Both the position numbers and the translations under genes were made by a program. Source: a virus. From it: a stretch of DNA of 38,407 bases. Position 1 is the stretch's first letter, and every line of letters begins with the position of its first letter. Location: the IMG/VR virus record IMGVR_UViG_3300044638_008818, positions 1 to 38,407 of that record; one strand, 5' to 3'. The notes under the pieces were generated by a model. That model was not told the origin of the DNA, searched no databases, and was given only the letters and a program-made list of their open reading frames with translations. Below are positions 360-25,554 of this stretch, in pieces.

Positions 360-1150
360 TAGTACACCAGATTAAATTGATTATAATATTCAGTCAAATA
401 TGGCCCAAGTATCTCATCAGGAGGAGTGCTTGTCTTCTTTAAGATTGTTCTAATTAAATGTAAATTTTCTAATCCCCAAGCAGCATCCTTTTCTTCAGCA
501 CAAAAATTATGAATGTTTTCATAAAGATGACCCAAATAATGAGGCAAACCTAAAAAGTCATAAATTTGTTTCAACACAATGTCAGGCTTGTTTATCAAGT
601 TTTCATACTCAACAATATGCAAATTATCTCTATAATTTTTCAGTCCAAACTTCATGCTTTCATATGGAGATATAATGTATTCTTCCCATAAGCACTTGGC
701 ACGATTGCCAATGTTAATTGGTATTTTTTTTGATTTCAAATGATTGTCAATAAAATTATCAGATTGTTTGTTTTTTTCAATTAATTTAATATAAGAAGCA
801 ATTATTTCTGAAACTGGACGAACAGTACAAATTATTTTAGGTTCATCTGTTACAAATTTTTTCAAAGGAACCAAGTTTCGTGGATGACCACGATGTTTAT
901 CTAAAATATATTTCTTGTCTATATGCTTGTAAAAGCCTTCGATAATTCCTTTGTAAACATTAGCAGAAACTACATCTTTGTCATAGGTATATTTTTGTTC
1001 CAACAAGTTAAAATTCTGATTGGCAAAACAAAGTAAATCTAAAAGAGGACTAGTTGGAGTAACATGAAAATCTGGATTTTGACCTATGATCGAACCTAAA
1101 AGTGTCGATCCAGATCTTGGAAGACCAGATAAGAAAAATATTGTTTTCAA
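359..1150 (-). CDS. Sulfotransferase family protein
   Basis: This 263-residue protein opens with FFLSGLPRSGSTLLGSII (about residues 5-22). That is the 5'-phosphosulfate-binding loop of PAPS-dependent sulfotransferases, directly after the first strand as usual. KIICTVRPVSEIIASYIKL (about 105-123) matches the 3'-phosphate-binding region, with the typical Arg followed by Ser. The length fits a single-domain sulfotransferase. The family moves sulfate from PAPS to hydroxyls or amines of sugars, proteins or small molecules. It overlaps the TPR-glycosyltransferase upstream by four bases and the GT25-like gene downstream by one, so the three form a tight glycan-modification unit. The substrate cannot be read from sequence; a virion or host-surface glycan is inferred from context. 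Confidence 0.85.
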   Translation of the reverse strand: MKTIFFLSGLPRSGSTLLGSIIGQNPDFHVTPTSPLLDLLCFANQNFNLLEQKYTYDKDVVSANVYKGIIEGFYKHIDKKYILDKHRGHPRNLVPLKKFVTDEPKIICTVRPVSEIIASYIKLIEKNKQSDNFIDNHLKSKKIPINIGNRAKCLWEEYIISPYESMKFGLKNYRDNLHIVEYENLINKPDIVLKQIYDFLGLPHYLGHLYENIHNFCAEEKDAAWGLENLHLIRTILKKTSTPPDEILGPYLTEYYNQFNLVY

Positions 1151-2547
1151 TTCAAATACCCTAACAAATCTTTAAGTTTTGCCATGGGTTCATCCCAATT
1201 TCTTGGTTTTGTTTGCCTTAGCAATGTTACATTTTCACCATACCAAGGGCTTTTCTCTGCTGAGTGGCACCAAGTGTAATATGCTGAAATTGGTACAAAA
1301 ACATAAACCTTCTTGCCTTGTGATGCTGCCATATGAGCAATGCTTGTGCATGACGTAATAACAATGTCAAGATTACTGATCAATGCAAAAGTATCTTCAA
1401 TTGTTTCTAGCTTATCACTATAATCAACAACATTAGGGAAATCAACAGTTTCTTCTACTCCATCATCTCTTTGTAGACTAATGAAATGAGCATCAATATG
1501 ACCAATATTTGAATAAAGCTGAGAGACAGGATAGGATCGATGTAGATCTTGTTCGTAATTCTTACTTCCCTTCCAACGAATACCGATTTTCGGCTTATCT
1601 GTGTCAATTTTCCATTTGTTCTGAAATTCTGGACAAGGTTTTAGATATGGTTCTTTCCATAAATCGGCATAGCCAAGATTCAAATAAATTGGTAATTGCA
1701 TTGAATATGTCCACATGACATCAGGCATATGCAATACTTCTTCCAAATCTTGAATGACAGGATAGCCATTTTTTACAAAAAGATTAGTTATTCCTTGTCT
1801 ATCATTTTTTTTATTTTTCTGTGTAGCTTCATACCAATAGGCATTAATGCCACGTTCTTTCAAATGATTCATAAATCGAATATTGATGATCTCATCGCCG
1901 ATTCCTGCTTCGGCATAAACAACAAGATTTTTTACATCTGGAGAGCCTTGCCAAAATGGCAGATTCAAAGCATTATTTTTTGTGAATATTACTTCTGTAT
2001 TCCAAAGTTTCATCTTGGCTCCACCCAAGAGAAATTGCCTCATCCCTTTTTGGAATTTATCTTCATATAAATAATATGTTCCTAGATTGAATTTAATCTT
2101 ATCACGAATTTCTTCAGGAATATCATCGCTCAACAATGCGTTTTCAAGTATTTTTTGAGCTTCAGGTTTTCTGTTTAACAAATAAAGAGCATAAGACTTA
2201 TGAAGTTCAATCTCTCCAGATGATCCTGCTCCTTCATTAAAACCGATATAAGTCATCGCCTCTTCTGGCATATTGGCACTGTTGTAAACATTTATAAGAT
2301 TGTTTCTTGTTACAAATACATGTTGTGCGCTTGGAGCAACGGTTAAAGATGCCTTACCATGCTTTATTGATTTCTTATATTCTTTTATCTTAAAATAACA
2401 TTTAGATAAATTGTCATGTTGACCAAATAGTGAAGCTGATTCGGAAAAAGCATCAAGACATTTAATTGCAAGATCTTTATATCCAATTTTTTGAAGAGCA
2501 ATAATAAAAGGCTCTAGATCGCTTATGCCTTGTGGTTCTTGGCTCAT
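1147..2547 (-). CDS. TPR protein with GT9-like glycosyltransferase domain
   Basis: This 466-residue protein has two parts. Residues 1-180 are helical repeats of TPR type (for example KCYFKIKEYKKSIKHGKASL). The C-terminal half holds LVVYAEAGIGDEIINIRF (about 208-225), the GDE loop typical of GT9/heptosyltransferase-like folds, then PKIGIRWKGS and a nucleotide-sugar-binding stretch with DIVITSCTSIAHMAASQGK. TPR plus this GT-B domain is common in bacteria and phages that glycosylate surface or structural proteins. The start overlaps the 3' end of the upstream 101-residue gene by four bases, and its own end overlaps the sulfotransferase start. The donor sugar and acceptor are not identifiable. 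Confidence 0.82.
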   Translation of the reverse strand: MSQEPQGISDLEPFIIALQKIGYKDLAIKCLDAFSESASLFGQHDNLSKCYFKIKEYKKSIKHGKASLTVAPSAQHVFVTRNNLINVYNSANMPEEAMTYIGFNEGAGSSGEIELHKSYALYLLNRKPEAQKILENALLSDDIPEEIRDKIKFNLGTYYLYEDKFQKGMRQFLLGGAKMKLWNTEVIFTKNNALNLPFWQGSPDVKNLVVYAEAGIGDEIINIRFMNHLKERGINAYWYEATQKNKKNDRQGITNLFVKNGYPVIQDLEEVLHMPDVMWTYSMQLPIYLNLGYADLWKEPYLKPCPEFQNKWKIDTDKPKIGIRWKGSKNYEQDLHRSYPVSQLYSNIGHIDAHFISLQRDDGVEETVDFPNVVDYSDKLETIEDTFALISNLDIVITSCTSIAHMAASQGKKVYVFVPISAYYTWCHSAEKSPWYGENVTLLRQTKPRNWDEPMAKLKDLLGYLN

Positions 2548-2849
2548 AGGTTCCTGATGTATTGTTCGACTTTGTAGAAGTCCCCTACAATTCTACTGAT
2601 ACGGGAATCTTTATCTTTTTCCACTAACTCTTTGGATGGAACATTTTCACCCATATCTTGAATGAACTTCTCTATTCCAACTAAGTAAGACCATAGCCAA
2701 TATTTTCTATTTCTAAGCCTTTTTTCAACATCTTTGACATATGTCTTCCAAGGAATTTTCCATTTTTTGAAAACAACTACATACCTCTCCATCATCATAC
2801 GATTCTGCTCATCGTAAAATTCAAGTTCAAAATCAGGAGAATCCAACAT
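2544..2849 (-). CDS. Hypothetical protein downstream of UvsW-like gene
   Basis: This 101-residue, mostly helical and charged protein has no family I recognise. It is rich in Lys, Arg and Trp (KKWKIPWKTYVKDVEKRLRN) and its C-terminal third looks helical. It is translationally coupled on both sides: its ATG shares one base with the stop of the UvsW-like helicase, and its end overlaps the TPR-glycosyltransferase start by four bases. T4 also has a small gene, uvsW.1, directly after uvsW, but I see no sequence reason to equate them. A helicase accessory role is only a positional guess. Confidence 0.7.
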   Translation of the reverse strand: MLDSPDFELEFYDEQNRMMMERYVVVFKKWKIPWKTYVKDVEKRLRNRKYWLWSYLVGIEKFIQDMGENVPSKELVEKDKDSRISRIVGDFYKVEQYIRNL

Positions 2850-4294
2850 TAAAAGTCTATCTCCTTGATTTCAACATTATGACCTTCTTTCTTCAAAATT
2901 TCAATTCTTTTGTTGCTGTGATCTTCCAGATAATCATTAATTTCAAAAACAAAGTCAAAATAATTCAATCTTTCTTTGTCATCGGCTGTTCTTAATCCAC
3001 GACCCATACGCTGAATAATCATGTGATCAGCCTGACCACCAGCAGCATTAATTAAATTGTTTGGGTGAACATTGATTCCCGTATTAAAAATCTGCTGAGT
3101 TGCAATCGCAATTAAATCGCCCTTAGCCTTCTGCAATTCTTTAATTACTGACTTTCTGGTAACAGCATTGTCTTTGCCTTGAACCCAAAGACTGTTGGGA
3201 AGAAGCTTGTTCAAAGCATCTCCATGAGCAATACGATCAACTAGAATAAGAGTTCTACCTCTTAAACTCTTGGCAAGACGAGTTACAACATCATGAAAAT
3301 GAAAGCTTTCGGCAATTCCACGAGTTACTGCATCAATGTAAATGTCATGTGGAATCTTAGGCTCACGAATTGGATAGAATATACACTTGCTCTTTGCCAA
3401 AATTCCACGGTCTTGCAATTCAGAAGTAGTTAGAACTCCACCTTCTGCCGACTTAATCTTCAAGATTGGCCCGAAAAAACCACGAACATAAAATTTTTGA
3501 ACTTGGTCTTTACCACCAAATTTGAAAGGAGTTGCACTTACTGCAACACGAATATCAGCAGACTTGAGACGACGATAAACAGCTTTTGGCAAAGTACTCA
3601 TCATATCATGAATTTCATCAACAATAAGAACTTTGATTTTAGGCAATACTTTTTCCATTTTGGCAACAGATTGAACTGTTGCAACTGTTATCATACTTGG
3701 ATTTACACTTCCACCCCATAATGATCCAACATTAGGAAGACCCCACTTAACAAACTCATCGTAATTTTGTTGAGCCAAACTAGCCCTATTCTGCAAAACC
3801 AATGTAGGTGTATTAGGAGCAATAGTTTTAAGGATACCGAGCATTACCAATGATTTTCCAGCAGAAGTAGGAGCATAGATAACACCTCTGCGATGTTTGA
3901 CAACTTGATTAATCATTTCAACTTGGTAATCATAAAGCTCAAGAGACTTGATCTTGTCGCCAATACTGTTCGTTTCTGGAAGCCATTGATTAAGAAAAAG
4001 TTTGTCAACTTCTTGATAAGCGAATAGACTCTTAGTTCTCAAGTCTTCAACTGTATATTCTGTTTTGAAATGATTCAAGACAGCACTAACTTCAGGAAGC
4101 AAACCAGTCAAAAATTTACCTGTTTCTAATGCAAAAAAATTGATGAAGCCGTCCCACTTTTTCATCTTGTAGGCACGGTTGTGAAAGTAATTCTTATCAC
4201 GGAAACGTAATCTGTCCCACAACTCAGTTCTGATTTTCATATCATCAGACAAGAAAAAAGAATAATCATTGTTGATTCGGAGGATGTTGGTCAT
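2849..4294 (-). CDS. uvsW: UvsW-like superfamily 2 DNA helicase
   Basis: This 481-residue protein has the full SF2 motif set: a Q-motif region LELYDYQVEMI (about 118-128), Walker A APTSAGKS (141-148), ITVATVQSV (motif Ib), DEIH (226-229), VAVSATPF (motif III) and QRMGRGLR near 430 (motif VI). The roughly 115-residue N-terminal region before the motor and the overall length fit T4 UvsW (503 aa). UvsW unwinds R-loops and branched DNA and moves replication from origin-dependent to recombination-dependent mode. AGGAG lies about 10 bases before the ATG. RecA/UvsX-like and gp32-like genes elsewhere in the window support a T4-type recombination system. It heads the overlapping gene chain that continues into glycan genes. 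Confidence 0.88.
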   Translation of the reverse strand: MTNILRINNDYSFFLSDDMKIRTELWDRLRFRDKNYFHNRAYKMKKWDGFINFFALETGKFLTGLLPEVSAVLNHFKTEYTVEDLRTKSLFAYQEVDKLFLNQWLPETNSIGDKIKSLELYDYQVEMINQVVKHRRGVIYAPTSAGKSLVMLGILKTIAPNTPTLVLQNRASLAQQNYDEFVKWGLPNVGSLWGGSVNPSMITVATVQSVAKMEKVLPKIKVLIVDEIHDMMSTLPKAVYRRLKSADIRVAVSATPFKFGGKDQVQKFYVRGFFGPILKIKSAEGGVLTTSELQDRGILAKSKCIFYPIREPKIPHDIYIDAVTRGIAESFHFHDVVTRLAKSLRGRTLILVDRIAHGDALNKLLPNSLWVQGKDNAVTRKSVIKELQKAKGDLIAIATQQIFNTGINVHPNNLINAAGGQADHMIIQRMGRGLRTADDKERLNYFDFVFEINDYLEDHSNKRIEILKKEGHNVEIKEIDF

Positions 4295-5666: not shown

Positions 5667-8600
5667 TTAACCTTCTCTCCATCTACTCCAGAATGTATTA
5701 TTCCTAACCATTTCTTCGTAGGTATGGGTTGCGAATCTCTTATGTGCAGCGCCAGCCCTTATTCCAGAAAGTCTCACTACCACTTCAATTTGATTATTGA
5801 TAAGCTTATCGCTTTCCACATCAATAATAATAAGATTGTCTCTCACATAAGCTCCAACAATAACTGGCATTGATGGAACAACACTTACAGGTTTTATTGT
5901 GTTAAAGGCACAAACTTGTAACAACCGATCATCAATAAATTTTGAAACATTTTCTGTTTTATGTCCAAGTCCACCAACCTTGAATATGACGATATCTTCA
6001 AATCTAACTTCTGGCATTTCTACACATATAAGCTCAACATATTCAGTTCCTTGAGAAGTAACAACAGGAAGGATCGCATACTTATCACCTTGTGGACCTT
6101 CTGCGCCTTGTGCGCCTTGTGCTCCGGCTGAACCTTGCAATCCAGAACCATTTTCGCCGGGAGGACCTTGTTCTCCTAGAGGACCCGGCTCACCTTGATC
6201 ACCTTGATCGCCTTGATCGCCTTTAGGCCCTTGTGCTCCTGTTTGGCCTTGAAATCCAGCTGGTCCACCTTGATTTCCTTGTGCCCCAATTGTACCCTGA
6301 TTTCCTTGATAACCTTGATAACCTTGATAACCTTGATTCCCTGTTATTCCTGTAAGTAAGCTATAAATTTCTTGATTTACTAATGCGTTTCCAGAAACAA
6401 AATTGACTGGAACTGAATAATAATCTATTGGAAATCCAGAATATCCCCCAGACTGGTAGCCAATGGGACTTCCATTTGAATTAAATATTGCTAAATTTGT
6501 TGTATTGTCGGATTCAATGTAAATGTAATTATTTACAATAAAATCTTCGATGTAATTTCCTTCATCTATACCGTTATAATCAACTTTTTTGATGTAAATC
6601 TGAGTTACATTACTTATTGTTGCATTATTAAAGTGAATATAACCAGCAGATGGAGCTTGATTACCATATACCGACTCATACTTATATTTTGGACCAAATA
6701 AAGATCCTTGATTTCCTTGAATGCCTTGAAATCCATCGGCAGGACCTTGAAAACCTTGATTTCCTTGGTTGCCTTGATATCCTTGTCTTCCTTGATATCC
6801 TTGTCTTCCTTGGTTACCTTGATATCCTTGGTTACCTTGATATCCTTGGTTACCTTGATATCCTTGAAATCCATCGGCAGGGCCTTGCAATCCCTGATTG
6901 CCTTGGAATCCTGCTCCTTGATTGCCTTGATTTCCTTGTTCTCCTTGATTTCCTTGGTTTCCTTGGAATCCTTGTCTTCCTTGTGCGCCTTGTCTTCCTT
7001 GAAAACCATTAGCTGGTCCTTGGAATCCTTGGCTTCCTACGTTGCCTTGACTGCCTTGAAATCCAAAAGGATATGCTTGATATCCCTGAGTTCCTTGGTT
7101 TCCTTGATAGCCTTGACCACCTGTTCCAGCAACACCTTGACTCCCTATTGATCCTTGATATCCTTGATATCCTTGATATCCTTGAAATCCATCAGCAGGA
7201 CCTTGTAATCCCTGATTGCCTTGTAGTCCAGTGCCTGTAATGCCTTGCGGTCCTTGAACACCAGATTCACCAGCATCTCCTTGATATCCCAAGTTTCCTT
7301 GATATCCTTGGAATCCTTGATTTCCTTGAAACCCTTGGAACCCTTGATTTCCTTGATAACCTTGGAATCCTTGGAATCCTTGATTTCCTTGATAGCCTTG
7401 TTCTCCCTGATGGCCTTGGAATCCTTGGAATCCTTGATTTCCCTGATAGCCTTGTTCTCCCTGATGACCTTGGAACCCTTGGAATCCTTGGTTTCCCTGA
7501 TAGCCTTGTTCTCCCTGATTTCCTTGGAACCCTTGGAATCCTTGATTTCCTTGATGGCCTTGGAATCCTTGGAATCCTTGATTTCCCTGATAGCCTTGTT
7601 CTCCCTGATGACCTTGGAACCCTTGATAGCCTTGGTTCCCTTGATAGCCTTGATTTCCTTGTAACCCTTGGAACCCTTGATAGCCTTGGCCTCCTTGGAA
7701 TCCATCGGGACTACCTTGCAGCCCTTGATTTCCTTGGTAACCTTGATTTCCTTGATAACCAGCCCCTTGTTCTCCCTGATTACCTTGATTTCCCTGAAAT
7801 CCTTGGAATCCTTGAAATCCTTGTTCTCCCTGATTGCCTTGATTTCCTTGGAACCCTTGATAGCCTTGGTTTCCCTGAAATCCTTGGAACCCTTGGAATC
7901 CTTGTTCTCCCTGATTGCCTTGATTTCCTTGGAACCCTTGATAGCCTTGGTTTCCCTGAAATCCTTGGAACCCTTGGAATCCTTGGTTTCCCTGATAGCC
8001 TTGTTCTCCCTGATTTCCTTGGAACCCTTGGAATCCTTGATTTCCTTGATGACCTTGAAACCCTTGGAATCCTTGATTTCCTTGATGACCTTGGAACCCT
8101 TGGAATCCTTGATTTCCTTGATAGCCTTGTTCTCCCTGATGACCTTGGAACCCTTGATAACCTTGGCCTCCTTGAAATCCATCGGGACTACCTTGCAGCC
8201 CTTGATTTCCTTGATTTCCCTGAAATCCTTGCAGCCCTTGATAACCTTGATAGCCTTGTAGCCCTTGATAACCTTGATGACCTTGATTTCCTTGGTAACC
8301 TTGGAATCCTTGAAACCCTTGGAATCCTTGATTTCCCTGATAGCCTTGGAATCCTTGAGATCCTTGAGCGCCAGTTATGCCTTGAGCGCCAGTAATTCCA
8401 ATAGTACCTTGGAATCCCTGAAATCCTTGATATCCCTGAAATCCTTGATATCCTTGGAACCCTTGATATCCTTGGAACCCTTGATATCCTTGGAACCCTT
8501 GATATCCTAGTCCTTGATATCCTTGGAACCCTTGAAAACCTTGATATCCTTGTTCACCTTGCAGACCTTGATAGCCTATTTGTCCTTGGTAACCAGTTAA

Positions 8601-10598
8601 TCCAAGATCTCCTTGTGCTCCTTGAGTTCCTTGAAATCCTTGATATCCTCTATCTCCTTGATTTCCTTGGTATCCTTGACGACCTTGAAATCCTTGGATT
8701 CCTTGATATCCTTGGTATCCTCGCTCACCTTCGCTTCCTTGTTGTCCTACATATCCTTGTTCACCTTGATTTCCTTGATATCCTTGATATCCTACATCTC
8801 CTATATTTCCAGTTTCTCCTTGATATCCTAGTCCTTGATATCCTTGTTCACCTTGATTTCCTTGGTATCCTTGATTGCTTTGATATCCTTGATATCCTGT
8901 TTCTCCTTGATATCCTAGTCCTTGATATCCTTGTATTCCTTGATATCCTTGGTATCCTTGGTATCCTTGATTGCTTTGATATCCTTGATATCCTGTTTCT
9001 CCTTGATATCCTAATCCTTGATATCCTTGTTCTCCTTGATATCCTAGGCTTCCTTGATTGCCAGTTAATCCAACATCGCCTTGTTCGCCTTGTCTTCCTT
9101 GTCTACCTTGATATCCTTGATATCCTCTATCTCCTTGAATTCCAGTAAATCCTTGATGACCTTGATAGCCTTGATTTCCTTGATATCCTTGTTCGCCTTG
9201 ATTTCCAGTATCTCCTTTATTTCCTTGACTTCCTAGTATTCCTTGAAATCCTTGACTTCCTAGTATTCCTTGAAATCCTTGATATCCTTGTTCGCCTTTA
9301 TCTCCTTGATATCCTTGTTCGCCTTGTCTTCCTTGTCTTCCTTGTTCACCTTGAAATCCTTGTTCACTTTGATAGCCTTGTTCGCCTTGATTTCCTTGGA
9401 AACCTTGAAGCCCTTGTTCGCCTTGATTTCCTTGGAAACCTTGAAGCCCTTGGAATCCTTGGTTGCTTTGGTATCCTTGATATCCTAATCCTTGATATCC
9501 TTGGAATCCTTGGAATCCTTGGAATCCTTGGAATCCTTGATTTCCTTGGAATCCTTGGAATCCTTGATTTCCTTGGAATCCTTGTCCTTGGTTTCCTTGA
9601 TTTCCTTGGAACCCTTTTTCGCCTTGATTTCCAGTTGATCCTTGATTTCCAGTTAACCCTTGACGGCCTTGAAATCCTTGTCGCCCTTGTTCTCCTTGGA
9701 ACCCTTTTTCGCCTTGATTTCCTATTAAACCTTGTCTTCCTTGATGTCCTTGAAATCCTTGTCGCCCTTGTTCTCCTTGGAACCCTTTTTCGCCTTGATT
9801 TCCTATTAAACCTTGTCTTCCTTGATGTCCTTGAAATCCTTGTTGGCCTTGTTGTCCTTGTTGTCCTTGTAATCCAATAGTTCCTTGTAATCCAATAGTT
9901 CCTTGTCTTCCTTGATATCCTTGAGCGCCTTGATATCCAGCGCCTTGAATTCCCTGATTGCCTTGTAGTCCTTGAAGCCCTTGAACGCCTTGTGTTCCAA
10001 TCCCTGTTGCGCCTGTTGTTCCTTGTGCGCCTTTTCCACCTTGCGGTCCTTGAAAACCTTGAACGCCTTGTTGTCCTTGTGCTCCATCAATTCCTTGACT
10101 TCCCTTTTGTCCTTGATATCCTTGACCTTGGAACCCTTGATAGCCTTGTAGGCCAATATCTCCTTGAAATCCAGCACCTTGGATTCCTTGTTCGCCTTGA
10201 AGACCTTGTTCACCTTTGATTCCTTGTTCGCCCTGAAGACCTTGAATTCCTTGGAATCCATCAGGACTGCCTTGAAGGCCAATAGTTCCTTGATTTCCTT
10301 GTAATCCTTGATTTCCTTGATTTCCTTTTGTACCTTGTGCGCCTTGTGGACCCGCAACAATACTAGGACCACCTTGAGCGCCTTGAGACCCTGCTCTTCC
10401 TTGTGAGCCTTGGTTGCCTTGTGAGCCAGATTGCCCTTGGTTTCCTTGTGGTCCTTGTTTTGACTGTCCAATTTGAGTCGAAACAACAAAATCTCGCAGA
10501 TCTTGTGCGGTAATTCCACCTTGGTTATTGTCTGCAAAAACACACAATAATTCTTCTTCTGTTCTTTGCGTTGCTGATTGATTGCATTGATTTGCCAT
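5667..10598 (-). CDS. Giant collagen-like Gly-X-Gln repeat protein
   Basis: I place the start at the ATG at 10598-10596 (1643 aa) because GGAAT sits just before it; an upstream in-frame ATG adds 16 residues without such a site. The N-terminus contains [12 protein letters not shown], a segment I recall from collagen-like phage tail proteins. Most of the protein is uninterrupted Gly-X-Y with Y nearly always Gln and X often Phe, Tyr, Asn or Glu; proline is rare. Seven G(S)PD or GPA(D/N) four-residue interruptions occur, and a globular insert of about 110 residues precedes the last triplets. The final 150 residues ([12 protein letters not shown] to NTFWSRW) match the C-terminus of the neighbouring collagen gene. 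It is probably a trimeric virion fibre. Confidence 0.88.
9667..9828 (-). repeat. Perfect tandem 81-bp duplication in collagen gene
   Basis: Two identical 81-base units (9667-9747 and 9748-9828) follow each other, and a third copy begins at 9829 before diverging. Each unit codes for nine collagen triplets (27 residues, from GFQGHQGRQ to GEQGRQ), so the frame and triplet register are kept. It is the clearest example of slippage or unequal crossing-over in this gene. Confidence 0.9.
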
Positions 10599-10636
10599 TT
10601 TATTCCTATACTTTTTTTGATTTATTATAAAATAGC

Positions 10637-12121
10637 TTATTCCCAACTATTCCAAAATTGATTGTTTTTAATCATTTCTTTGTATGTGTATTCAACAAAT
10701 CTTCTGCCGCTAAAGCCCAATCTAATTCCTGATAGTCTAATTGTTAATTTTATTTCATTTTCAATTAACTTTTCGCTTTCTGCTTCGATAAACAAAAATT
10801 CACCTTCTATGTATGCTCCAATGTTAATTGGAGCTGATGGAACTACACTGACGACGACAATTGACTGAGGATCGCAAACTTGCACAAAACTATCATTTAA
10901 TTTAATAAAATCTTTATGATTGTTAGTGCCTTGATTGCCAATAACTGTAAAAACTAAATCTTCAAACCGAACTTCAGGCATTTCTACGCAAGACAAGCCA
11001 ACATATTTTTCAGAATATTCTTGTATAATTGGAACAATTGCATTTTTAGCTCCTGCTGAACCTTGTGCTCCTTTTGCTCCTGTTGATCCTTTTGCTCCTG
11101 TCGCACCTGTTGCTCCTGTGGGGCCTGTCGCACCTGTTGCTCCTTTGGGGCCTGTTGATCCTGTTGATCCTTTCGGCCCTATTGCGCCTTGAGCGCCTTG
11201 AGACCCTTTCGGACCAACAACTCCTCCTAAGCCGTTTATTCCTTGTTTTCCTTGTGGGCCTATTGCCCCAGTTAATCCTATTGCTCCTTGAACTCCAATT
11301 AATCCTTTTTCTCCTTGGCGACCTTGAAATCCTTGGTGACCTTGAAATCCTTGGCGACCTTGAAATCCTTGATGACCTTGAAATCCTTGGCGACCTTGAA
11401 ATCCTTGGCGTCCTTGATGACCTTGATATCCTTGATATCCTTGATGACCTTGATATCCTTGGCGACCTTGAAATCCTTGACGACCTTGATGACCTTGATA
11501 TCCCTGAAAACCTTGACTGCCTTGATAGCCCTTTTCTCCTTGACGGCCTTGAAATCCTTGGCGACCTTGAAATCCTTGAAAACCTTGATTTCCTTGATTT
11601 CCTTGAAATCCCTGACGACCTTGAAATCCAATAGTGCCTTGAAAACCGTCTCTTCCTTGTAAACCTTGATTTCCTCTTTCTCCTTGATTTCCAAAGTCTC
11701 CTTGAAGTCCTTTATTTCCTTGTCGTCCTTGAAGTCCTAGATTTCCTTGTTGTCCTTGGTTTCCTATGCCTACAGATCCTTTTTCTCCTTGTTGACCCTG
11801 ATTCCCTTTATCCCCTTTTACTCCTGTTAATCCTAATCCTCCTTGTGGTCCCGTTAGTCCTTTTTCTCCTTGCAGACCTTGTCTTCCTTGTCTTCCTTGA
11901 TATCCTTGCTCTCCTTGCTCTCCTTGTCTTCCTTGATGTCCTTGTCTTCCTTGAGATCCTATTCCGGGTCCTTGATAACCTTGAGTTCCTTGAGTTCCTT
12001 TAGTTCCTTGATATCCTTGATATCCTTGTTCTCCAAGCTGTAAAGCTTTGACGTAGGCGGAATTATTGATTAATAATTCTTCTTTGTTATCAAAATTTTC
12101 TTGATTACCTTGATTTATCAT
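10637..12121 (-). CDS. Second collagen-like fibre protein
   Basis: I choose the ATG at 12121-12119 (494 aa), which follows AGGAAAAAA and lies eight bases after the upstream stop; the longer frame would run through that gene. Residues 30-330 are Gly-X-Gln triplets. They end in a more classical stretch (GPKGATGATGPTGATGATG) with Pro and Thr, unlike the larger neighbour. The C-terminal 150 residues share [37 protein letters not shown] and a final NNQFWNSW with the giant collagen protein, so the two are paralogues with a common C-terminal domain. That domain is likely for trimer nucleation or attachment. The stop is 38 bases before the start of the larger gene, in one operon. Confidence 0.88.
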   Translation of the reverse strand: MINQGNQENFDNKEELLINNSAYVKALQLGEQGYQGYQGTKGTQGTQGYQGPGIGSQGRQGHQGRQGEQGEQGYQGRQGRQGLQGEKGLTGPQGGLGLTGVKGDKGNQGQQGEKGSVGIGNQGQQGNLGLQGRQGNKGLQGDFGNQGERGNQGLQGRDGFQGTIGFQGRQGFQGNQGNQGFQGFQGRQGFQGRQGEKGYQGSQGFQGYQGHQGRQGFQGRQGYQGHQGYQGYQGHQGRQGFQGRQGFQGHQGFQGRQGFQGHQGFQGRQGEKGLIGVQGAIGLTGAIGPQGKQGINGLGGVVGPKGSQGAQGAIGPKGSTGSTGPKGATGATGPTGATGATGAKGSTGAKGAQGSAGAKNAIVPIIQEYSEKYVGLSCVEMPEVRFEDLVFTVIGNQGTNNHKDFIKLNDSFVQVCDPQSIVVVSVVPSAPINIGAYIEGEFLFIEAESEKLIENEIKLTIRLSGIRLGFSGRRFVEYTYKEMIKNNQFWNSWE

Positions 12122-12128
12122 TTTTTTC

Positions 12129-12380
12129 CTATTTGAAGCTATTTGAGAAGGCGCTGCCAAATTGCTTATATTGTCCTTGATAACTTGTTTGCTTGATATA
12201 CTTACATTGACGATATGCTTCTTCATAAGAAACAGTGCGAGGAACATAAGCTCCATCGCTTTGATTGTCTACACATACTTCTGAAGATTTATGTGGAGGA
12301 CATTTAAAAACAATAGATGGATTGATGCAACACTCGCTCAATCCAGCTGGTAAATTACAAGTTGTTTTTTTTGTTGCCAT
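12129..12380 (-). CDS. Small cysteine-containing protein upstream of collagen genes
   Basis: This 83-residue protein has six cysteines (C8, C17, C18, C27, C36, C59), five of them in the first 36 residues, and a Tyr/Gln-rich C-terminus (YKQFGSAFSNSFK). I know no family. No signal peptide or membrane segment is visible. There is no clear Shine-Dalgarno site before the ATG. It lies directly before the two collagen-like genes on the same strand, so it may be a virion component or assembly factor; the cysteine spacing could bind metal but is not a standard zinc-finger pattern. Confidence 0.7.
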   Translation of the reverse strand: MATKKTTCNLPAGLSECCINPSIVFKCPPHKSSEVCVDNQSDGAYVPRTVSYEEAYRQCKYIKQTSYQGQYKQFGSAFSNSFK

Positions 12381-13563: not shown

Positions 13564-13612
13564 GTTCTCAACATATAATTAATTGTCAAGCAAAAAATTA
13601 CGAGATGAACAA

Positions 13613-14548
13613 ATGCGTCATTTTTTGTCCATTTCCGACTTCACTAAAGATCAAATTGAAACTGTTTTAGAAATTGCGACAGACATTGAAAAGAATTGGG
13701 AATTTTGTCGCCAAATGAACAACAAATGTATTTCTTCGTTTTTTGCAGAACCTTCTACTAGAACCAGATTTTCCTTTGAGCGAGCAATGCATTGGCTTGG
13801 AGGAAGATGTGTTACGGCTGCTGATGCATCTTCAAGTAGCAGTTTAATCAAAGGTGAAAGCCTCAAGGATACATTTCGCACCCTTGGCCAGTATTCTGAT
13901 GCTATAATTATGCGTCATGGTGATTCAAGCTGGCCAGAAATAGCAAGAGCATATTCTCGTGTTCCAGTAATTAATGCAGGAAGTGGATCTGGGGAACATC
14001 CAACACAGGCACTTCTTGACCTTCACACAATTAAACAAAAATGGAAAGATGTCAGTAATCTTAAGGTTATGTTGTGTGGAGATCTTAAAAACGGAAGAAC
14101 AATACACAGTCTTATTGAACTTCTTCACATTTATGGTTGCAAAATATATTATTGCGCTGCCACTGATCATGCAGATTGTGATTTGAGCATACCTGAAAAA
14201 TACCTTGCAAATATTCCTTGTAAAAATGTTGAAATATGTGACGCAAATGACATTCTTCCAGAAATCGATGTCATTTATATGACCAGAATCCAAAAAGAAA
14301 GATTCAAAGGTGTCAGTGGTTCTCTAGATTTCTTTAAGATTGACAAAACCAATATCAATAAAATCAAAGAAAACGCTGCAATTCTTCATCCTCTCCCTAG
14401 AAATGAAGAAATTAGTGAAGACATAGATGATGATTCTCGTGCTGACTATCATGAAAGACAAGTCAGGAATGGTCTTTATATAAGAACTGCTCTTTTAGAT
14501 TACACCCTCTATACAAGTCCCTTACACAAATATTACAGAGAAATATAA
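13613..14548 (+). CDS. pyrB: Aspartate carbamoyltransferase catalytic chain
   Basis: This enzyme makes N-carbamoyl-aspartate from carbamoyl phosphate and aspartate, the committed pyrimidine step. From the ATG at 13613 it is 311 residues, the same length as E. coli PyrB. A TTG at 13583 would add ten residues but has no ribosome site. The active-site set is intact: STRT (48-51), the loop Ser and Lys80 before GES, MRH with R101, HPTQ (129-132), GRTIHS, TRIQKER and HPLPR. No regulatory PyrI gene is visible, so the chain is probably an unregulated trimer, or uses host PyrI. It is followed after five bases by a methyltransferase. Full-length conservation argues for a working enzyme that boosts pyrimidine supply during infection. 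Confidence 0.95.
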   Translation: MRHFLSISDFTKDQIETVLEIATDIEKNWEFCRQMNNKCISSFFAEPSTRTRFSFERAMHWLGGRCVTAADASSSSSLIKGESLKDTFRTLGQYSDAIIMRHGDSSWPEIARAYSRVPVINAGSGSGEHPTQALLDLHTIKQKWKDVSNLKVMLCGDLKNGRTIHSLIELLHIYGCKIYYCAATDHADCDLSIPEKYLANIPCKNVEICDANDILPEIDVIYMTRIQKERFKGVSGSLDFFKIDKTNINKIKENAAILHPLPRNEEISEDIDDDSRADYHERQVRNGLYIRTALLDYTLYTSPLHKYYREI

Positions 14549-14553
14549 ATTTT

Positions 14554-15198
14554 ATGAAAGATATAACATGGATGCCTTCTTGGGCATCGTACAATAGAGA
14601 AGATCAGGTACATCCACATCAAGAAGAAGAAAAATCACATCTTTTTCATGCTCTTGATATTGGTTCAACTGAATATGAAGTATTAAATTGGATTCATTCT
14701 ACAATTCGTGTCCTAAAACCAAAATTAGTTTTGGAAACAGGAGCGTATGAGGGAATCGGAACTTTAGCTTTAGCTCATGCCTGCAAACTAAATGGATTTG
14801 GAAAAGTTATCAGTATTGAAAATGATTCCAAACAATGTGTCAAAGTCGAAGAAATATTAGAAGAAAATAATTTAAAAAAATATGCAGAAGTTATTTGCTC
14901 AGATAGCATTGAATTTCTAAATATAACAAATTATAAATTTGAAATAGGATTTTTTGATAGTGAGACAACTATTCGTGCAAAAGAATGTGAAATTTGTTTA
15001 GATCGTAATATTTTAAATAATGTTGCTATATTTCATGATACTTCACCATATCGTCTCGATGTAATTACACCTCAACACATTCAACAAAAGTATAGAAGTG
15101 ATATTTTTGAACTAGCACGACATCCAAATTGTACAGGATATTATGATTCTTGTTTATCAAGAGGATTTATGGCCTTATGGCTTAAAAATTATTCGTAA
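14554..15198 (+). CDS. Class I SAM-dependent methyltransferase-like protein
   Basis: This 214-residue Rossmann-type protein contains KLVLETGAYEGIGTLALAHA (about 53-72), motif I for SAM binding. VISIENDSKQCVKVEEIL follows, with an acidic residue at the end of strand 2. Then come AEVICSDSIEFL and FEIGFFDSETT, and FHDTSPYR. The layout resembles O-methyltransferase/cephalosporin-hydroxylase-like families that act on sugars or small molecules. It follows the ATCase gene by five bases and converges with the next gene, overlapping it by ten bases at the 3' ends. The substrate is unknown; glycan methylation would suit the number of glycosyltransferases here. Confidence 0.72.
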   Translation: MKDITWMPSWASYNREDQVHPHQEEEKSHLFHALDIGSTEYEVLNWIHSTIRVLKPKLVLETGAYEGIGTLALAHACKLNGFGKVISIENDSKQCVKVEEILEENNLKKYAEVICSDSIEFLNITNYKFEIGFFDSETTIRAKECEICLDRNILNNVAIFHDTSPYRLDVITPQHIQQKYRSDIFELARHPNCTGYYDSCLSRGFMALWLKNYS

Positions 15199-15902
15199 GG
15201 AAATAATTCTTTAAATTTTTCTCTGACATTGTCATTAATGCAAGACATATAAACATCAAGTTCAAAATTAATTTTCTTATAATCATCTTCTGTAAATATT
15301 TTTTTAACAAATGAAGAAATAGCAAGATAATAAGGAGAAATTTTTCCAAGATTAATCCATCGGAAAATATTATTGTTAATATAACATTCTTGCATTTTGT
15401 TTAATGTGTGTTCAGAGCCGAATATTTTAGCAAAAAATTCTTTTGTTTTTTCAATTCCATCAATTGCTTTTTGGAATCCAATTCCATTAGCAACAGATTC
15501 TGCTGGTTTATTTTTGACTGAGTCGTACCTTTTCTTCCAAAGCTTCCATCTTTTCCAAGCTCTTTCGCCAACTAAGCAGTTTGGATCAATAAGAGGATGA
15601 TCTTTTCCAGAATTTATATATTTAAGAACTTCTAACTGAGCACGGATATAAAGTGAATATTCATTGTTCTCAAGAATTCCCTGAGTTTCTCTTGCAAGCT
15701 TATATGCTATTTTAAATATGAGAGACTTTCTAGGGTCGCCCTTTTTCATTGTTGAGTGACGATAATCAGGAAATGTTTTTCTGCTCTGTTCAAGCCACAT
15801 TGCAGAAAGATTGCAAGCTTTTGCCTCAAGATCGTCCATATTATACTTTTCAACTGCATCTAAGAGCCACATGTAGTCATCCTCTTTTTTTTCAGACTTC
15901 AT
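15189..15902 (-). CDS. Hypothetical helical protein
   Basis: This 237-residue, charged, mainly helical protein is of no family I recognise. It has an acidic/basic N-terminus (MKSEKKEDDYMWLLD), a Trp/Lys-rich centre (ERAWKRWKLWKKRYD, about 113-127) and no membrane segment. AAAGGAG lies before the ATG. It is a single-gene leftward unit between two rightward genes, overlapping the methyltransferase end by ten bases. The basic aromatic patch could contact nucleic acid, but that is speculation. Confidence 0.68.
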   Translation of the reverse strand: MKSEKKEDDYMWLLDAVEKYNMDDLEAKACNLSAMWLEQSRKTFPDYRHSTMKKGDPRKSLIFKIAYKLARETQGILENNEYSLYIRAQLEVLKYINSGKDHPLIDPNCLVGERAWKRWKLWKKRYDSVKNKPAESVANGIGFQKAIDGIEKTKEFFAKIFGSEHTLNKMQECYINNNIFRWINLGKISPYYLAISSFVKKIFTEDDYKKINFELDVYMSCINDNVREKFKELFPYE

Positions 15903-15941: not shown

Positions 15942-16829
15942 ATGAAAATAGCATTTTGCCCATTAGTTAGTCGTGATATGGACAAGGCAATTCGTGCCAC
16001 AAATTCTTGTCGCAATCAATTTTCAACCGAATCCATTGAAATAGAAACAGTTGCAATTATCAATTCTCAAAATCAAGAATTTGTTTCTCATTTTTCAGAA
16101 TGGTGCGAAAAAGAGAATGTCAAATATAAAGTTACAGAATCAAATGGCACTCCGAGTAAGGGTAAAAACTCTGTATTAGATTTTTTGCAAAACTCAGAAT
16201 ATGATGGTCTGAGTCTCACTGATGGAGACGACCTATTTTACCCAACAGGCGCAATTCAAATTGAAAAACACATGAGGCATCACCCGGGAACTGATGTTTT
16301 AATTGTCAAGCCTTCATATCAAGTTTTAAATGAACAAACAAACGGCTCTAATCAGATTGGAGAAAATAAATATGCAGTATGTTGGGGCATGAATATTATT
16401 AATCTTGGATATAAGTATGGACCCGAAAAGCATGATATATTTACATTAGGTCATAAGGCAGCAAGAAATTTAGGTGGACATGTATTTTATAGTAAAAAAT
16501 TAAGCAACATGATAAGGTACGATGAAGAACAATTATTGGGAGAAGACCTACTTCTTGAATTCAATCTTCTTAAACTTCATCAAGAAAGTAAAATATCATT
16601 TTGGTTAAGTTTTGCTAGTGATGTACAGATGTTAGATAGAACTAATCAAGAAAGCATACAAAAAACTAAAAATAGTAGTTTCGGTAGTGTTTGTTATGAA
16701 AGGCTGATTGAAAAAGTAAGGGAAATATTGCCTGAGGATAGAAGTTCTTTTAATGAATTGCCAGTAGAGTTTCCAGAAATTATTTTTAATTATGATCAAA
16801 AAATTGAATGGTTGAAGCAAGTTTTTTGA
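15942..16829 (+). CDS. GT-A type glycosyltransferase-like protein
   Basis: This 295-residue protein has GT-A fold features. MKIAFCPLVSRD is the first strand, with IEIETVAIINSQ next. SLTDGDDLFYP (residues 91-101) is a DxD-type metal and nucleotide-sugar site. A later LLGEDLLLEFNLLK supplies the acidic residues often used as base or acceptor contact. No membrane segment is present, so it is likely cytosolic in the infected cell. It stands alone on the plus strand between the unknown leftward gene and the long gene-free RNA region. Donor and acceptor are unknown. Confidence 0.68.
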   Translation: MKIAFCPLVSRDMDKAIRATNSCRNQFSTESIEIETVAIINSQNQEFVSHFSEWCEKENVKYKVTESNGTPSKGKNSVLDFLQNSEYDGLSLTDGDDLFYPTGAIQIEKHMRHHPGTDVLIVKPSYQVLNEQTNGSNQIGENKYAVCWGMNIINLGYKYGPEKHDIFTLGHKAARNLGGHVFYSKKLSNMIRYDEEQLLGEDLLLEFNLLKLHQESKISFWLSFASDVQMLDRTNQESIQKTKNSSFGSVCYERLIEKVREILPEDRSSFNELPVEFPEIIFNYDQKIEWLKQVF

Positions 16830-16849
16830 CATTTTGGGGCAAATAATAT

Positions 16850-16877
16850 TTGACATTCATGCTTTAATCTGTAGAAT
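16850..16877 (+). promoter_or_regulatory. Sigma70-type promoter for the structured RNA
   Basis: A perfect -35 TTGACA (16850-16855), a 16-base spacer and a -10 TAGAAT (16872-16877) predict transcription from about 16883-16885. That is at the start of the first helix of the RNA below. It lies just after the upstream stop codon. Confidence 0.7.
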
Positions 16878-16879
16878 AT

Positions 16880-17270
16880 GGTTGGCAATCCCCCAACTGG
16901 ATTCAACAATGGTTTCGTACTACCTGAGTTGATGAAGGTGCCTAACCTGTGAGGCCCATACCATGGGCAGGTCTTTGTAGTTGTTCTACAACAAATGCTA
17001 TTACGGGTAGCATTGTTCTCACGGCAGTAGAGGTAAAGTCGAATAGAATTTATGCTGACTTTCATGGCTCCTGTGTCTCCCAAACAAACACAATGCCATG
17101 GACTATTCGATCTTAGGTTTACTGCAAAAAAAAGTACGCAAGTCTTCACCAACCAAAAGGTAAAAGCTGAAGTGAATAAGACAGTAACAAAAAGAATAAG
17201 CTTAAACGCTAAATTTTTGCTCTACTAATCTTGTTTACCTAATAAGTCATTATTCTTACTGACTTATACA
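16880..17270 (+). ncRNA. Large structured noncoding RNA, family not identified
   Basis: The 563 bases between genes (16830-17392) hold no convincing frame but many perfect helices in order: 16881-85/16893-97; 16903-07/16928-32; 16954-59/16963-68 within 16945-48/16969-72; 16975-80/16986-91; 16994-17000/17008-14; 17024-29/17120-25 enclosing 17039-46/17103-10, then 17063-68/17095-100, then 17072-76/17088-92; 17144-48/17168-72; and 17242-49/17260-67. GGTTGG at 16880-85 can also pair with CCAACC at 17149-54, closing the whole domain. The promoter at 16850 fits this 5' end. The 3' end is unclear because no U-tract follows the last hairpin, so it may instead be a long leader of the polymerase mRNA. 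It resembles large phage-borne RNAs in size and complexity only. Confidence 0.68.
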
Positions 17271-17392
17271 GCAATTACCATTTAGGTCAGCATCCCGTTC
17301 CAAAGTTTGATTGTAAATAAAAATTTCAAAAATAAATTGGTCTTGTTTTAACTGGAAAAGTTTTGCAGAATTGGGCCTAGGAGGAACGATCT

Positions 17393-18706
17393 ATGAATTT
17401 TGAATCTCTGGCCAAGTTGTTATCTGGAATTGATCAGAAAGCCGTTTTCTTGCGGTTTAATCCAGAGATCATGGACATTGCTGAAAAAGACTTGGAGAAT
17501 GAGCTTCAGTTCATGCTTTCTGATGGTGTTTCGTTTCAAGTAATGATTCGTGATGATACATTGCCTTTAATTTTGAGTATGTTGCAATTATCATTGTTTT
17601 CAAAAGATAAAAAGGTTTTTACTTGGAATTGGAAGAACTTTTCAAGCTATGTTTTGTGTAAGACTGGCAAGAGTCTTGATATAAAGGCTTCTATAATTGA
17701 TATAAAGATATTAGAATCATTTAGTGGTATTAAAAAAGTTGCTCCTGTTTCGTTTGTTGAGGCGATGAATAGGATTAAGCATTTGGTTTCGTCGGGTTTG
17801 TGGAAAGAAAGTGAAAACATTTATCGTAAGATTCATTTACCGTTAATGACGACAGTTCTGCCTCATCTTGAGAGTGTAGGAATATTGGATGTAGAACGTG
17901 CTGCCAAAGTACACGCTTACTACGAGATTGATGGTCAGGAAAACGGTCGATTACGTTGTCATGGGGCTTACAAAAAATCATTTGTTCCGCATACAATGGG
18001 ATCTGATTTGAAAGATGTTTTGAAGCCGATTGGTTGTGATAATTTATTTATGAGTTTTGATTTTAAGGGTATGGAAGTTTTTGTGTTAGCCAACTCTAGT
18101 CAAGACTCTAAACTATTGCGTTTGTGTGAGTGTGATGATATTTATTCGGCACTGTTTCAGGTCTTGATGTCAAGTGATCCAGAAAAAAATGATAGGGAAT
18201 TGGCAAAAAAATGCTTCTTGCCTGTTATATATGGACAGTCGGCCCGATCACTTTCTTTGAGATGTGGTTTGGCGGCTGATGTGGCTGAGAAAGTGGTGGA
18301 GCGAATTAGTTCTTTGTTTCCCACTGCTATTTCATTTGTTGCCGATTGCGAAAGCAAAGTTAAAAAAGATGGATACGCAAAGGATATCTTCGGTAAGCGA
18401 AGAACAAACTTTGAGGTTGGTAAGGAATATCTTGCTAGAAATTTTGCTGTGCAGTCTCCTGCTGCAACGATATGCCTAGAAAAGTTGATTAAATTATATT
18501 TTGCGTTGGAAGGCAAAGCTCAAATTGCTTATACTGTACATGACGGTTACGTTATTTATGTAACTAAAGATAACTGGAAACAAATTTTCAAGAAAAGCAT
18601 GGATGCGCTTACAAGCGAATCTGAACTTTGTCCTAAACTTCGACTGAAGGTTTCATGTCGTGGTGGACGCAATCTTAACGATTTGAAAGTGATAAAAACG
18701 TCTTAA
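17393..18706 (+). CDS. Family A DNA polymerase, probably exonuclease-deficient
   Basis: This 437-residue protein carries the polymerase A palm and fingers. Motif A is FMSFDFKGMEVFVLA with D223. Motif B is RELAKKCFLPVIYG (268-281). ARNFAVQSPAATICLEKL matches the 'R.A.N.xxQ..AAD' helix, and motif C is YTVHDGYVIYV with D384. Both catalytic Asp residues remain, but the usual HDE is HDG. Residues 1-120 resemble the Pol I exonuclease fold (KVFTWNWKNFSSYVL) without its acidic residues, so proofreading is probably absent; that is inference. AGGAGG lies eight bases before the ATG. It replaces the family B polymerase of T4 in an otherwise T4-like set, and the next gene follows after ten bases. Confidence 0.88.
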   Translation: MNFESLAKLLSGIDQKAVFLRFNPEIMDIAEKDLENELQFMLSDGVSFQVMIRDDTLPLILSMLQLSLFSKDKKVFTWNWKNFSSYVLCKTGKSLDIKASIIDIKILESFSGIKKVAPVSFVEAMNRIKHLVSSGLWKESENIYRKIHLPLMTTVLPHLESVGILDVERAAKVHAYYEIDGQENGRLRCHGAYKKSFVPHTMGSDLKDVLKPIGCDNLFMSFDFKGMEVFVLANSSQDSKLLRLCECDDIYSALFQVLMSSDPEKNDRELAKKCFLPVIYGQSARSLSLRCGLAADVAEKVVERISSLFPTAISFVADCESKVKKDGYAKDIFGKRRTNFEVGKEYLARNFAVQSPAATICLEKLIKLYFALEGKAQIAYTVHDGYVIYVTKDNWKQIFKKSMDALTSESELCPKLRLKVSCRGGRNLNDLKVIKTS

Positions 18707-24410: not shown

Positions 24411-24431
24411 CCTTGTTGGTTTAGCCTCTCT
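24400..24431. terminator. Stem-loop between opposing genes
   Basis: AGAGAGG (24400-24406) pairs with CCTCTCT (24425-24431), and AACC with GGTT inside, around a TTGTT loop. It lies at the end of the small rightward frame and at the stop of the leftward glf-like gene, so it could end transcription from either side. Neither strand has a good T-tract directly after it, so it may be rho-assisted or only a transcript-stabilising hairpin. Confidence 0.45.
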
Positions 24432-25554
24432 ACACAAATGTTTTAAACTTAGTTAATGCTGAAGCAATTGTCTGGTCAATGTCCAGATATTTATATTCAC
24501 CAAGCCTTCCTCCAAAAGTGATTTCTTTGTGGTTTGTTTTAAGATCTGCGTACTTATTGTATAGTTCGCTGTTTTTATCATCTCTGATTGGATAGTAAGG
24601 TTCGGGATGATCTTTAAATGCAACTGGAATGTCATATGAGACAACAGTTTCTTCTTTCGATTGCAGCTTGACTTCATAATGTTTTGGATTGTTTTTGTAA
24701 AAATGCTTATGCTCTATTGTCCTGATATGTGGCACAGACATGTCTACATGATTAAACACAGCATTCCCTTGATAGTCGCCATGCATTTTTTTGTGTTCAA
24801 ATCTTAAAGTGTTGTATTCCAAAGATCCAAACTCATAGTCGTAAAACTTATCTATTGGTCCTGTGTAGATCAGATGTTTGGCATAATCACGCCATTTGTT
24901 TCTAATTGTAAAAAAATCAGTATTGAGTTCTGTTTTAATTCCATCAAGCATATTTTTTATTGTTGCTGAATATCCTTCATTTGGAATGCCTTGATATTTT
25001 GTTGTGAAATAATTTTCTTCATAAGTAAGTCTTATTGGCAGTCTCTGAATTATTGAGGCTGGAAGATCTCTAGGTTCTTTCATCCATTGTTTTTTAGTGT
25101 ATCCATAAAAGAATAATTCATAGATTTCCTTGCCAACTCTGTCTAAAGCCCATTCTTCAAAGTTTCTAGGATTTTCGCATGGTATCCGCACATCTTGCAG
25201 TTTACGGTATGCTTCTTCTGGATTGATAACTCCCCATAATTGATGAAGAGTCATCATGTTAATTGGGAATGAATAAACATTTCCTTTAGATAAAACTTTT
25301 GGTTTGTTTGTGAAAGGCATAATTGTTGTGAATTTATTAATGAAGTCCCAGACTTCTTCGCTTTGAGTGTGGAATATGTGCGCTCCATATTCACTTACAA
25401 TAATGCCATTGTCCCATTTTCGATCATATGTTGCGCCAGCAATGTGATTGTTTTTATCAATTACAAGGCACTTTTTGCCAGCATCTGTTGCTTTTCTTGC
25501 AAAAGTGGCACCAAAGAATCCTGATCCCACAATCATAAAGTCAAATTCAGGCAT
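24430..25554 (-). CDS. glf: UDP-galactopyranose mutase
   Basis: This flavoenzyme converts UDP-galactopyranose to UDP-galactofuranose, the donor for galactofuranose glycans. The 374-residue length is typical. FMIVGSGFFGATFARKA (6-22) is the FAD dinucleotide fold, with VIDKNNHIAGATYD as the second part. EYGAHIFHTQSEEVWDFI carries the conserved 'GaHiFHT' segment. YGYTKKQWMKEPRDLPAS matches the family's 'f.gYT.KQWg..p..L' motif, and the C-terminal GGRLGEYKYLDIDQTIASAL the FAD-contacting end. It starts one base after the upstream glycosyltransferase stop, so they form one operon. Its presence implies that some phage- or host-derived glycan carries galactofuranose during infection. Confidence 0.93.
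   Translation of the reverse strand: MPEFDFMIVGSGFFGATFARKATDAGKKCLVIDKNNHIAGATYDRKWDNGIIVSEYGAHIFHTQSEEVWDFINKFTTIMPFTNKPKVLSKGNVYSFPINMMTLHQLWGVINPEEAYRKLQDVRIPCENPRNFEEWALDRVGKEIYELFFYGYTKKQWMKEPRDLPASIIQRLPIRLTYEENYFTTKYQGIPNEGYSATIKNMLDGIKTELNTDFFTIRNKWRDYAKHLIYTGPIDKFYDYEFGSLEYNTLRFEHKKMHGDYQGNAVFNHVDMSVPHIRTIEHKHFYKNNPKHYEVKLQSKEETVVSYDIPVAFKDHPEPYYPIRDDKNSELYNKYADLKTNHKEITFGGRLGEYKYLDIDQTIASALTKFKTFV

Follow-up and report, generated by a model that had tools for sequence, protein, structure and literature searches.

Replication of ColE1 uses a structured pre-primer RNA, and a small hairpin located at the ribosome-binding site serves as the translational operator of the T4 and RB69 DNA polymerase genes. 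A recent entry point to work on the ColE1 pre-primer is available (PMC11012335). Origins of T4 consist of a promoter, then an A+T-rich element and an RNA primer, and lie near strand switches; the minimal origins, about 100 bp long, have little sequence in common, and no structured RNA is described for them (PMC3016281). Among the ornate RNAs of phages, a ROOL example measures 659 nt, and GOLLD RNAs often exceed 800 nt (PMC12286853). The RNA family described here may connect the way in which phages of hundreds of kilobases start replication with the function of ornate RNAs.

The window, a 38,407-nt fragment of an uncultured phage (IMG/VR record IMGVR_UViG_3300044638_008818), contains a noncoding gap of 563 bases between an open reading frame ending at 16829 and the start of polA at 17393, as the first-pass annotation had reported. 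The polA gene (17393 to 18706, plus strand, 437 aa; Pfam DNA_pol_A, E=1.7e-27) encodes a family A DNA polymerase and is part of a T4-like replication set that includes a DnaB/gp41-like helicase and gp32-like and RecA/UvsX-like proteins. That annotation had placed a large, highly structured noncoding RNA in the gap, and homologues, covariation, and fold energy support it: an RNA conserved in relatives and matched by a covariance model occupies approximately 16884 to 17330 on the plus strand, where a predicted transcription start and 3′ end give a transcript of about 430 to 450 nt. Positions 16880 to 17165 fold at −87.5 kcal/mol (z = −3.96; an energy as low occurred in 0 of 200 dinucleotide shuffles), and the fold of the whole gap has a z score of −3.63 against dinucleotide shuffles. 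That large uncultured T4-like phages carry a conserved structured RNA of this family is virtually certain.

The gap RNA resembles ROOL and GOLLD in being a large, pseudoknotted, multi-branched RNA of phages or prophages with no assigned function and with structure conserved more than sequence. It differs in its length of about 430 nt, in matching neither family in Rfam, and in lying at polA and a putative origin, whereas ROOL and GOLLD are often encoded near tRNA islands; the resemblance drawn earlier from size and ornateness thus stands as a likeness without membership. With ColE1 RNA II it shares a structured transcript of roughly half a kilobase, with its own promoter (here judged by sequence), that would run into a putative origin co-oriented with the leading strand, and the relevant polymerase is of family A in both cases. 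However, the two have no sequence or Rfam relation, and the gap RNA belongs to a phage rather than a plasmid and to a genome that encodes the polymerase next door. No Rfam match to the ColE1 antisense RNA I was found at the locus, and a promoter scan of 16000 to 18500 listed no minus-strand site inside the RNA with more than 9 of 12 consensus matches. As at T4 oriF and oriG, a promoter and then an A+T-rich element lie near a coding-strand switch in a phage with T4-like replisome genes, and the 3′ end of the RNA is proposed to prime the leading strand, but in this phage promoter and A+T-rich element are separated by about 430 nt of covarying fold. The T4/RB69 operator is likewise an RNA element upstream of a polymerase gene, while the gap RNA ends 70 to 200 nt upstream of that gene, with a promoter in between in many relatives.

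All parts of the fold lie on the plus strand. At the 5′ end, GTTGG (16881 to 16885) can pair with CCAAC (16893 to 16897) and ATCC (16888 to 16891) with GGAT (16899 to 16902), a pseudoknot predicted from sequence at 16881 to 16904. It has the same a-b-a′-b′ topology, with other sequences, as the covarying pseudoknot of diverged homologues; among the closest relatives it lacks clear covariation support, and part of its first strand may precede the transcription start. Hairpin P2 (16903 to 16932) has an outer stem, TCAAC (16903 to 16907) with GTTGA (16928 to 16932), in which by inspection the sequence varies and pairing is retained in most homologues, and an inner stem, GGT (16911 to 16913) with ACC (16922 to 16924), which is helix 1 of the covariation count. 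The P2 loop strand CGTACT (16916 to 16921) pairs with AGTACG (17133 to 17138), about 215 nt downstream, in a long-range pseudoknot detected by RNAalifold and also seen in the count of double changes. Next comes a domain (16949 to 17022) closed by GTGAG (16949 to 16953) with CTCAC (17018 to 17022) and bearing hairpins at 16954 to 16968, 16980 to 16992, and 16994 to 17014; its helices 2, 3, 4, and 6 have 80 to 94% of cells paired and double changes in each. The following domain (17024 to 17125) is closed by GCAGTA (17024 to 17029) with TACTGC (17120 to 17125) and contains a long helix (17039 to 17046 with 17103 to 17110) and an inner hairpin (17063 to 17100). These are helices 7, 8, and 9, and helix 8 has double changes at 10 of 10 pairs.

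A 3′ domain (17159 to 17279), obtained with RNAalifold from five near homologues, comprises an arm of GGTAA (17159 to 17163) with TTACC (17275 to 17279), side hairpins (17242 to 17249 with 17260 to 17267), and a conserved TTAAAC loop (17202 to 17207) whose closing pairs read GGC/GCC, GGT/ACC, AGT/ACT, or TGT/ACA in relatives. Beyond it, the alignment contains a conserved element of the GGTCAGCATCCCG type (17286 to 17297) and a conserved A+T-rich 3′ end (GATTGTAAATAAAAATTTC..., 17309 to 17340). The end of the RNA coincides with a minimum of duplex stability: across 21 homologues its median rank is within the least stable 2.5% of windows, a rank biased upwards by the use of an AT-rich motif as the anchor.

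Most of the dozen or so helices listed from the sequence at the outset are present, and the outer nested ones (17024 to 17029 with 17120 to 17125, and 17039 to 17046 with 17103 to 17110) have homologous helices with compensatory changes in relatives. The RNA had been drawn too short, and the 3′ domain (taken from 17159 to 17327) and the long-range pseudoknot have been added. The helix proposed to close the structure, GGTTGG (16880 to 16885) with CCAACC (17149 to 17154), was rejected because transcription starting about 7 bases after the −10 box would begin near 16884, inside the GGTTGG strand, and because the pairing is lost in L009, L010, L011, and L021; the same 5′ segment can instead form the local pseudoknot.

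Covariation was measured by pair counts, with shuffle and slide controls, in a structure-blind MAFFT alignment of 19 homologues. Over the 44 pairs of the central structure, standard pairs made up 79.8% versus 64.8% after shuffling, and double (compensatory) changes were present at 34 of the 44 pairs versus 23.3 when shuffled. The number of double-changed cells was 121 compared to 50.0 ± 6.4 in shuffles, and sliding the partners by 1 to 3 columns left only 24 to 49. For the long-range pseudoknot there were 29 double-changed cells in 23 sequences versus 7.2 shuffled, with CGTACT/AGTACG in the window replaced by CGCACT/AGTGCG (L021), GTGCT/AGCAC (L015), GCGCT/AGCGC (L032), GTATC/GATAC (L034), TGCGTT/AACGCA (L039), or TATGCT/AGCATA (L186). 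Diverged homologues begin with an H-type pseudoknot, GAG-NN-GGNNN-CTC-NNN-N′N′N′CC, in which the GAG/CTC stem is also seen as GGG/CCC or AAG/CTT and the other stem occurs in many sequence versions. Anchored counts for this 5′ pseudoknot are biased towards pairing by the choice of partners by eye, and a free, unanchored search for 5′ pseudoknots gave noise. Two pseudoknots covary, the 5′ one in diverged homologues and the long-range one.

Relatives of polA were gathered from viral contigs, with one more from a MAG labelled Neisseriaceae, and every close relative has the RNA directly upstream of polA, even where little DNA similarity is left. The gap is identical in seven contigs, and those of L009, L010/L013, and L011 share 73 to 80% identity with the window gap by BLASTN. 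In L012, L014, L015, L026, L032, L034, and L051, and likewise in seven more distant loci (L016 to L019, L031, L039, and L050), motif order and fold are shared with the window, with little alignable DNA. A covariance model of 168 positions, built from 22 sequences, scored 127.8 bits on the window at 16943 to 17126, the window sequence being part of the training set. Held-out sequences were also recovered, namely L021 (126.9 bits, E 2e-29), L224 (132.2 bits), L039 (61.1 bits, 8e-13), and L218 (36.0 bits, 1.5e-6), with a weak match in L251 (19.3 bits), and all five matches lie just upstream of polA. Across 1.68 Mb of large phage contigs the model gave seven strong matches, one per genome and each at polA.

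When the model was run on 274 bacterial genomes from the same class as the Neisseriaceae MAG, the sole match was the known phage contig, and the other 273 were empty; an exact-pattern scan of viral contigs returned nothing beyond the polA-linked loci already identified; and BLASTN against 50,697 phage records gave only chance-level matches for the window gap and none for the L026 gap. Several deeper polA relatives and the L020, L027 to L030, and L043/L047 groups have large noncoding gaps unmatched by the model, including those of L020, L030, and L047 searched with filters off, and the polA genes of G010 and LR756511 are without such an RNA. Upstream of polA in L027, L029, and L030 lies a different structured gap of about 700 bases (fold z −2 to −3), also unmatched by the model.

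The gene-neighborhood table shows the gap RNA keeping the company of polA, a 183-aa gene, and the helicase gene across relatives. A conserved C3-cluster gene of unassigned function (15189 to 15902, minus strand, in the window) is the immediate upstream neighbor of the RNA in many relatives, and the genes separating the RNA from this divergent gene vary. No tRNA genes were present in the window or in the 225-kb relative contig G003. Host-like metabolic genes elsewhere in the window encode an aspartate/ornithine carbamoyltransferase (13583 to 14548), a UDP-galactopyranose mutase (24430 to 25554), and a sulfotransferase (362 to 1150).

To locate strand asymmetry, GC skew at the third codon position was computed per gene with a coding-strand term and subjected to a changepoint search with 100 permutations. 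In most of the large contigs analysed the skew jumped no more than about 3 kb upstream of polA. The whole-contig optimum lay upstream of polA, at 0.05 to 3.1 kb from its start, in G002, G003, G004, G008, and G010, with F values of 33 to 116 compared to permutation maxima of 12 to 19. The jump was seen for genes on both coding strands, which argues against a mere transcription effect. Summed over nine contigs, including G013, the profile peaked at −1.5 kb from polA and stayed flat between about −3 and 0 kb; the resolution is 1 to 3 kb, and the summed optimum lies slightly left of the RNA. Collagen-like tail-fibre genes confound the changepoint in G003 and G013 and were left out of the final analysis. 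In the window, two long collagen-like GxQG repeat proteins with tail-fibre family matches (5667 to 12256, minus strand) distort the local GC skew. In G013, the 69-kb contig of the window's own phage, the switch fits once these genes are removed and the search is limited to ±25 kb, but with the full length of this short contig the best position moves to a region at −23 kb. The switch is weak in G005 and G006, and G007 and G011 carry the RNA with no significant switch at it. G010 switches sharply at polA yet lacks an RNA of this family, and the strong switch of G004 accompanies a gap unmatched by the covariance model. The noncoding gap of G009 lies 1.8 kb upstream of polA; there, a switch at the gap is 0.1 from the optimum and one at the polA boundary 4.4, a difference of 4.3 chi2-like units in favor of the gap. 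A repeat search for iterons found none. The polA/RNA locus is thus probably a replication origin, on a skew signal that is indirect and absent in some genomes, and the RNA is oriented along the apparent rightward leading strand. That the RNA itself is needed at the origin is something we infer.

Our preferred reading, held tentatively and at somewhat below an even chance, is that a folded origin transcript primes or licenses leading-strand synthesis. The RNA would be transcribed from its own sigma70 promoter, with transcription opening the duplex, and would extend across the A+T-rich element where it ends. The predicted fold of this RNA, which combines the 5′ pseudoknot, two multi-branched domains, the 3′ arm, and the hairpin whose loop pairs 215 nt further on, could hold the nascent RNA on the template as an R-loop or could recruit replication proteins such as the polymerase or helicase, and the 3′ end at the A+T-rich element might then be extended rightwards as the leading strand. 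Direction, promoter, A+T-rich element, and family A polymerase are consistent with such a mechanism; against it, R-loop origins need no ornate RNA. With no counterpart in Rfam and a place at a predicted origin beside the replicative polymerase gene, this covarying RNA provides a testable link between the start of replication in large phages and the roles of ornate phage RNAs. Should the proposed mechanism prove incorrect, the new family, which combines two covarying pseudoknots with a fixed genomic partner, would still be a good target for structural work and for annotation of phage RNAs.

The strongest competitor, which we consider possible though rather improbable, is a trans-acting ornate RNA of the ROOL/GOLLD sort, serving as a scaffold, cage, sponge, or host regulator and lying near the origin merely as early genes cluster. 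The size, pseudoknots, and multi-branched fold are those of ornate phage RNAs (PMC12286853), and a promoter of its own and structure conserved far beyond sequence fit as well. However, such an RNA would not be expected to stay strictly adjacent to polA across very diverged phages while its upstream neighbors change, or to sit at the skew switch, and it shows no relation to tRNA islands.

Promoters bear on a second competitor, a leader within the polA mRNA that acts in cis to regulate polymerase synthesis, either through binding of the polymerase to its own leader or as a ligand-sensing element; T4 gp43 polymerase, for example, binds its own mRNA leader. The sigma70-type promoter noted at first pass, TTGACA-16-TAGAAT, is present at 16850 to 16877 on the plus strand (11 of 12 consensus matches, p=0.005 versus shuffles) and is conserved at the same place in L009, L010 (TTGACA/TATAAT), L011, and L021. 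In the four closest relatives the −10 box lies 6 to 7 bases ahead of the conserved RNA, as in the window. In the near group a sigma70 promoter ends 2 to 7 bases before the conserved RNA, and in many diverged homologues it lies mostly 31 to 56 bases before the 5′ pseudoknot. Across homologues, whose sequences are not independent, the combined p is about 1e-10 for the RNA promoter and about 1e-7 for a second promoter between RNA and polA in many relatives; individually, polA promoters downstream of the RNA reach p 0.005 to 0.055 in eight relatives (L021, L026, L027, L029, L030, L031, L034, and L050). In favor of a leader, every locus matched by the covariance model has the RNA upstream of polA and in the same orientation, the promoter of polA itself is weak in the window (p=0.27) and also in L009 and L010, and no strong terminator separates RNA from polA in the window. 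Downstream polA promoters in many relatives weigh the other way, as do a distance from RNA end to ATG that varies among relatives from about 70 to 200 nt, a ribosome-binding site not covered by conserved structure, and a fold far larger than known autoregulatory operators. Because the RNA has a promoter of its own, polA promoters lie downstream, and the spacing to the ATG varies, a separate transcript is favored over a polA leader, which we regard as unlikely, and the RNA is predicted to be a stand-alone product of its own sigma70 promoter. One arm of a perfect 13-base inverted repeat (16115 to 16127 and 16846 to 16858) overlaps the −35 region of this promoter, and the other lies inside the upstream gene.

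The sequences were also compared to 4227 families of Rfam 15 at the gathering cut-off, including ROOL, GOLLD, tmRNA, RNase P, introns, and RNAI. The window had no match, in agreement with the earlier failure to recognize tmRNA, RNase P, or a group I intron, and at E<=10 gave only a chance snoRNA-like match on the other strand; 15 scans of homologous loci were empty, and seven diverged loci gave nothing even at E<=0.5. A search of open literature found no description of this RNA. By every test available the family is new, while ornate phage RNAs and origin transcripts as such are already known. The size range and multi-branched fold, and the fact that polA genes can host introns, would suit a catalogued RNA too diverged to recognize, such as a tmRNA, RNase P, or a degenerate intron of group I or II. 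We give this a very small probability: Rfam is silent at these relaxed thresholds, the downstream polA is uninterrupted, and the RNA has a promoter of its own and no exon ahead of it. Equally improbable is chance structure in a purely DNA-level origin element, where inverted repeats are frequent, or in a minus-strand gene (118-aa ORF, 16796 to 17152, open in L002 and L011). The covariation of pseudoknots and long-range pairs follows a single transcribed orientation, hairpins and loops keep their sequences in the manner of RNA motifs, and the ORF is not conserved, being absent in L010 and L021, and was rejected as a gene.

In a few relatives unmatched by the covariance model, protein genes occupy the slot between the divergent gene and polA. 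An RNase HI gene (E=1e-37) lies between a large structured noncoding gap and polA in L043 (2372 to 2920) and L047 (2737 to 3273), and in L243 the gene directly upstream of polA (2651 to 3931) encodes a protein that weakly matches the archaeo-eukaryotic-primase domain of TOTE systems (E=9e-5, short of the curated cut-off). A protein of 387 to 394 aa occupies the same position in L048 (2829 to 3998), L167 (18841 to 19998; LR756511.1, a published 595-kb phage), L260, and L261, and carries DIxNSQP and IHDS motifs that resemble polymerase motifs A and C. It had no match in Pfam, NCBIfam, PHROG, or PDB, and AlphaFold models of one member, the polymerase-like P0001, were of low confidence, with a pLDDT of 39.8 for the single sequence and 58.5 for three sequences, and gave no significant fold match; this family is possibly an unrecognized polymerase or primase at the origin. 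Searches for RNase H, 5′-nuclease, and DnaG zinc-ribbon proteins in phage contigs were mostly negative, and since most RNA-bearing contigs are without a phage RNase H of the searched families, a host enzyme would be needed.

The RNase HI, primase-like, and polymerase-like genes fit a priming function, which is suggestive in a small sample that includes other gene types. A broader proposal, which we hold to be doubtful, is that a dedicated pseudoknotted origin RNA starts replication in this family of large phages, is inherited vertically with polA, and has been replaced by or separated from polA by protein genes in a few lineages, where the slot holds an RNase H, a primase-like protein, or a polymerase-like protein with an initiator-like N-terminus. 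On this view the RNA would be a phage counterpart of ColE1 RNA II whose conserved fold is far more elaborate.

Further arrangements were seen upstream of polA in L043 and L047 and in other relatives. About 2650 to 2150 bases (L043) and 2320 to 1820 bases (L047) upstream, a divergent gap contains a conserved long hairpin, CCCCGGAGACTCCCCTTGTT...AACAAGAGGGGAATCT, and recurrent copies of a TTTAAAC motif; this gap is perhaps a second type of origin RNA. L249 has an HNH-helicase gene in the interval, and in L046 (IMGVR_UViG_3300035205_001136) the segment directly upstream of polA (977 to 3950), where relatives carry the RNA, contains a Cas12-like effector (Cas12b models, E about 1e-66) and a CRISPR array with the repeat GGTGTGGAACACCTTGAATTGTAGGTAGACCGCAAC.
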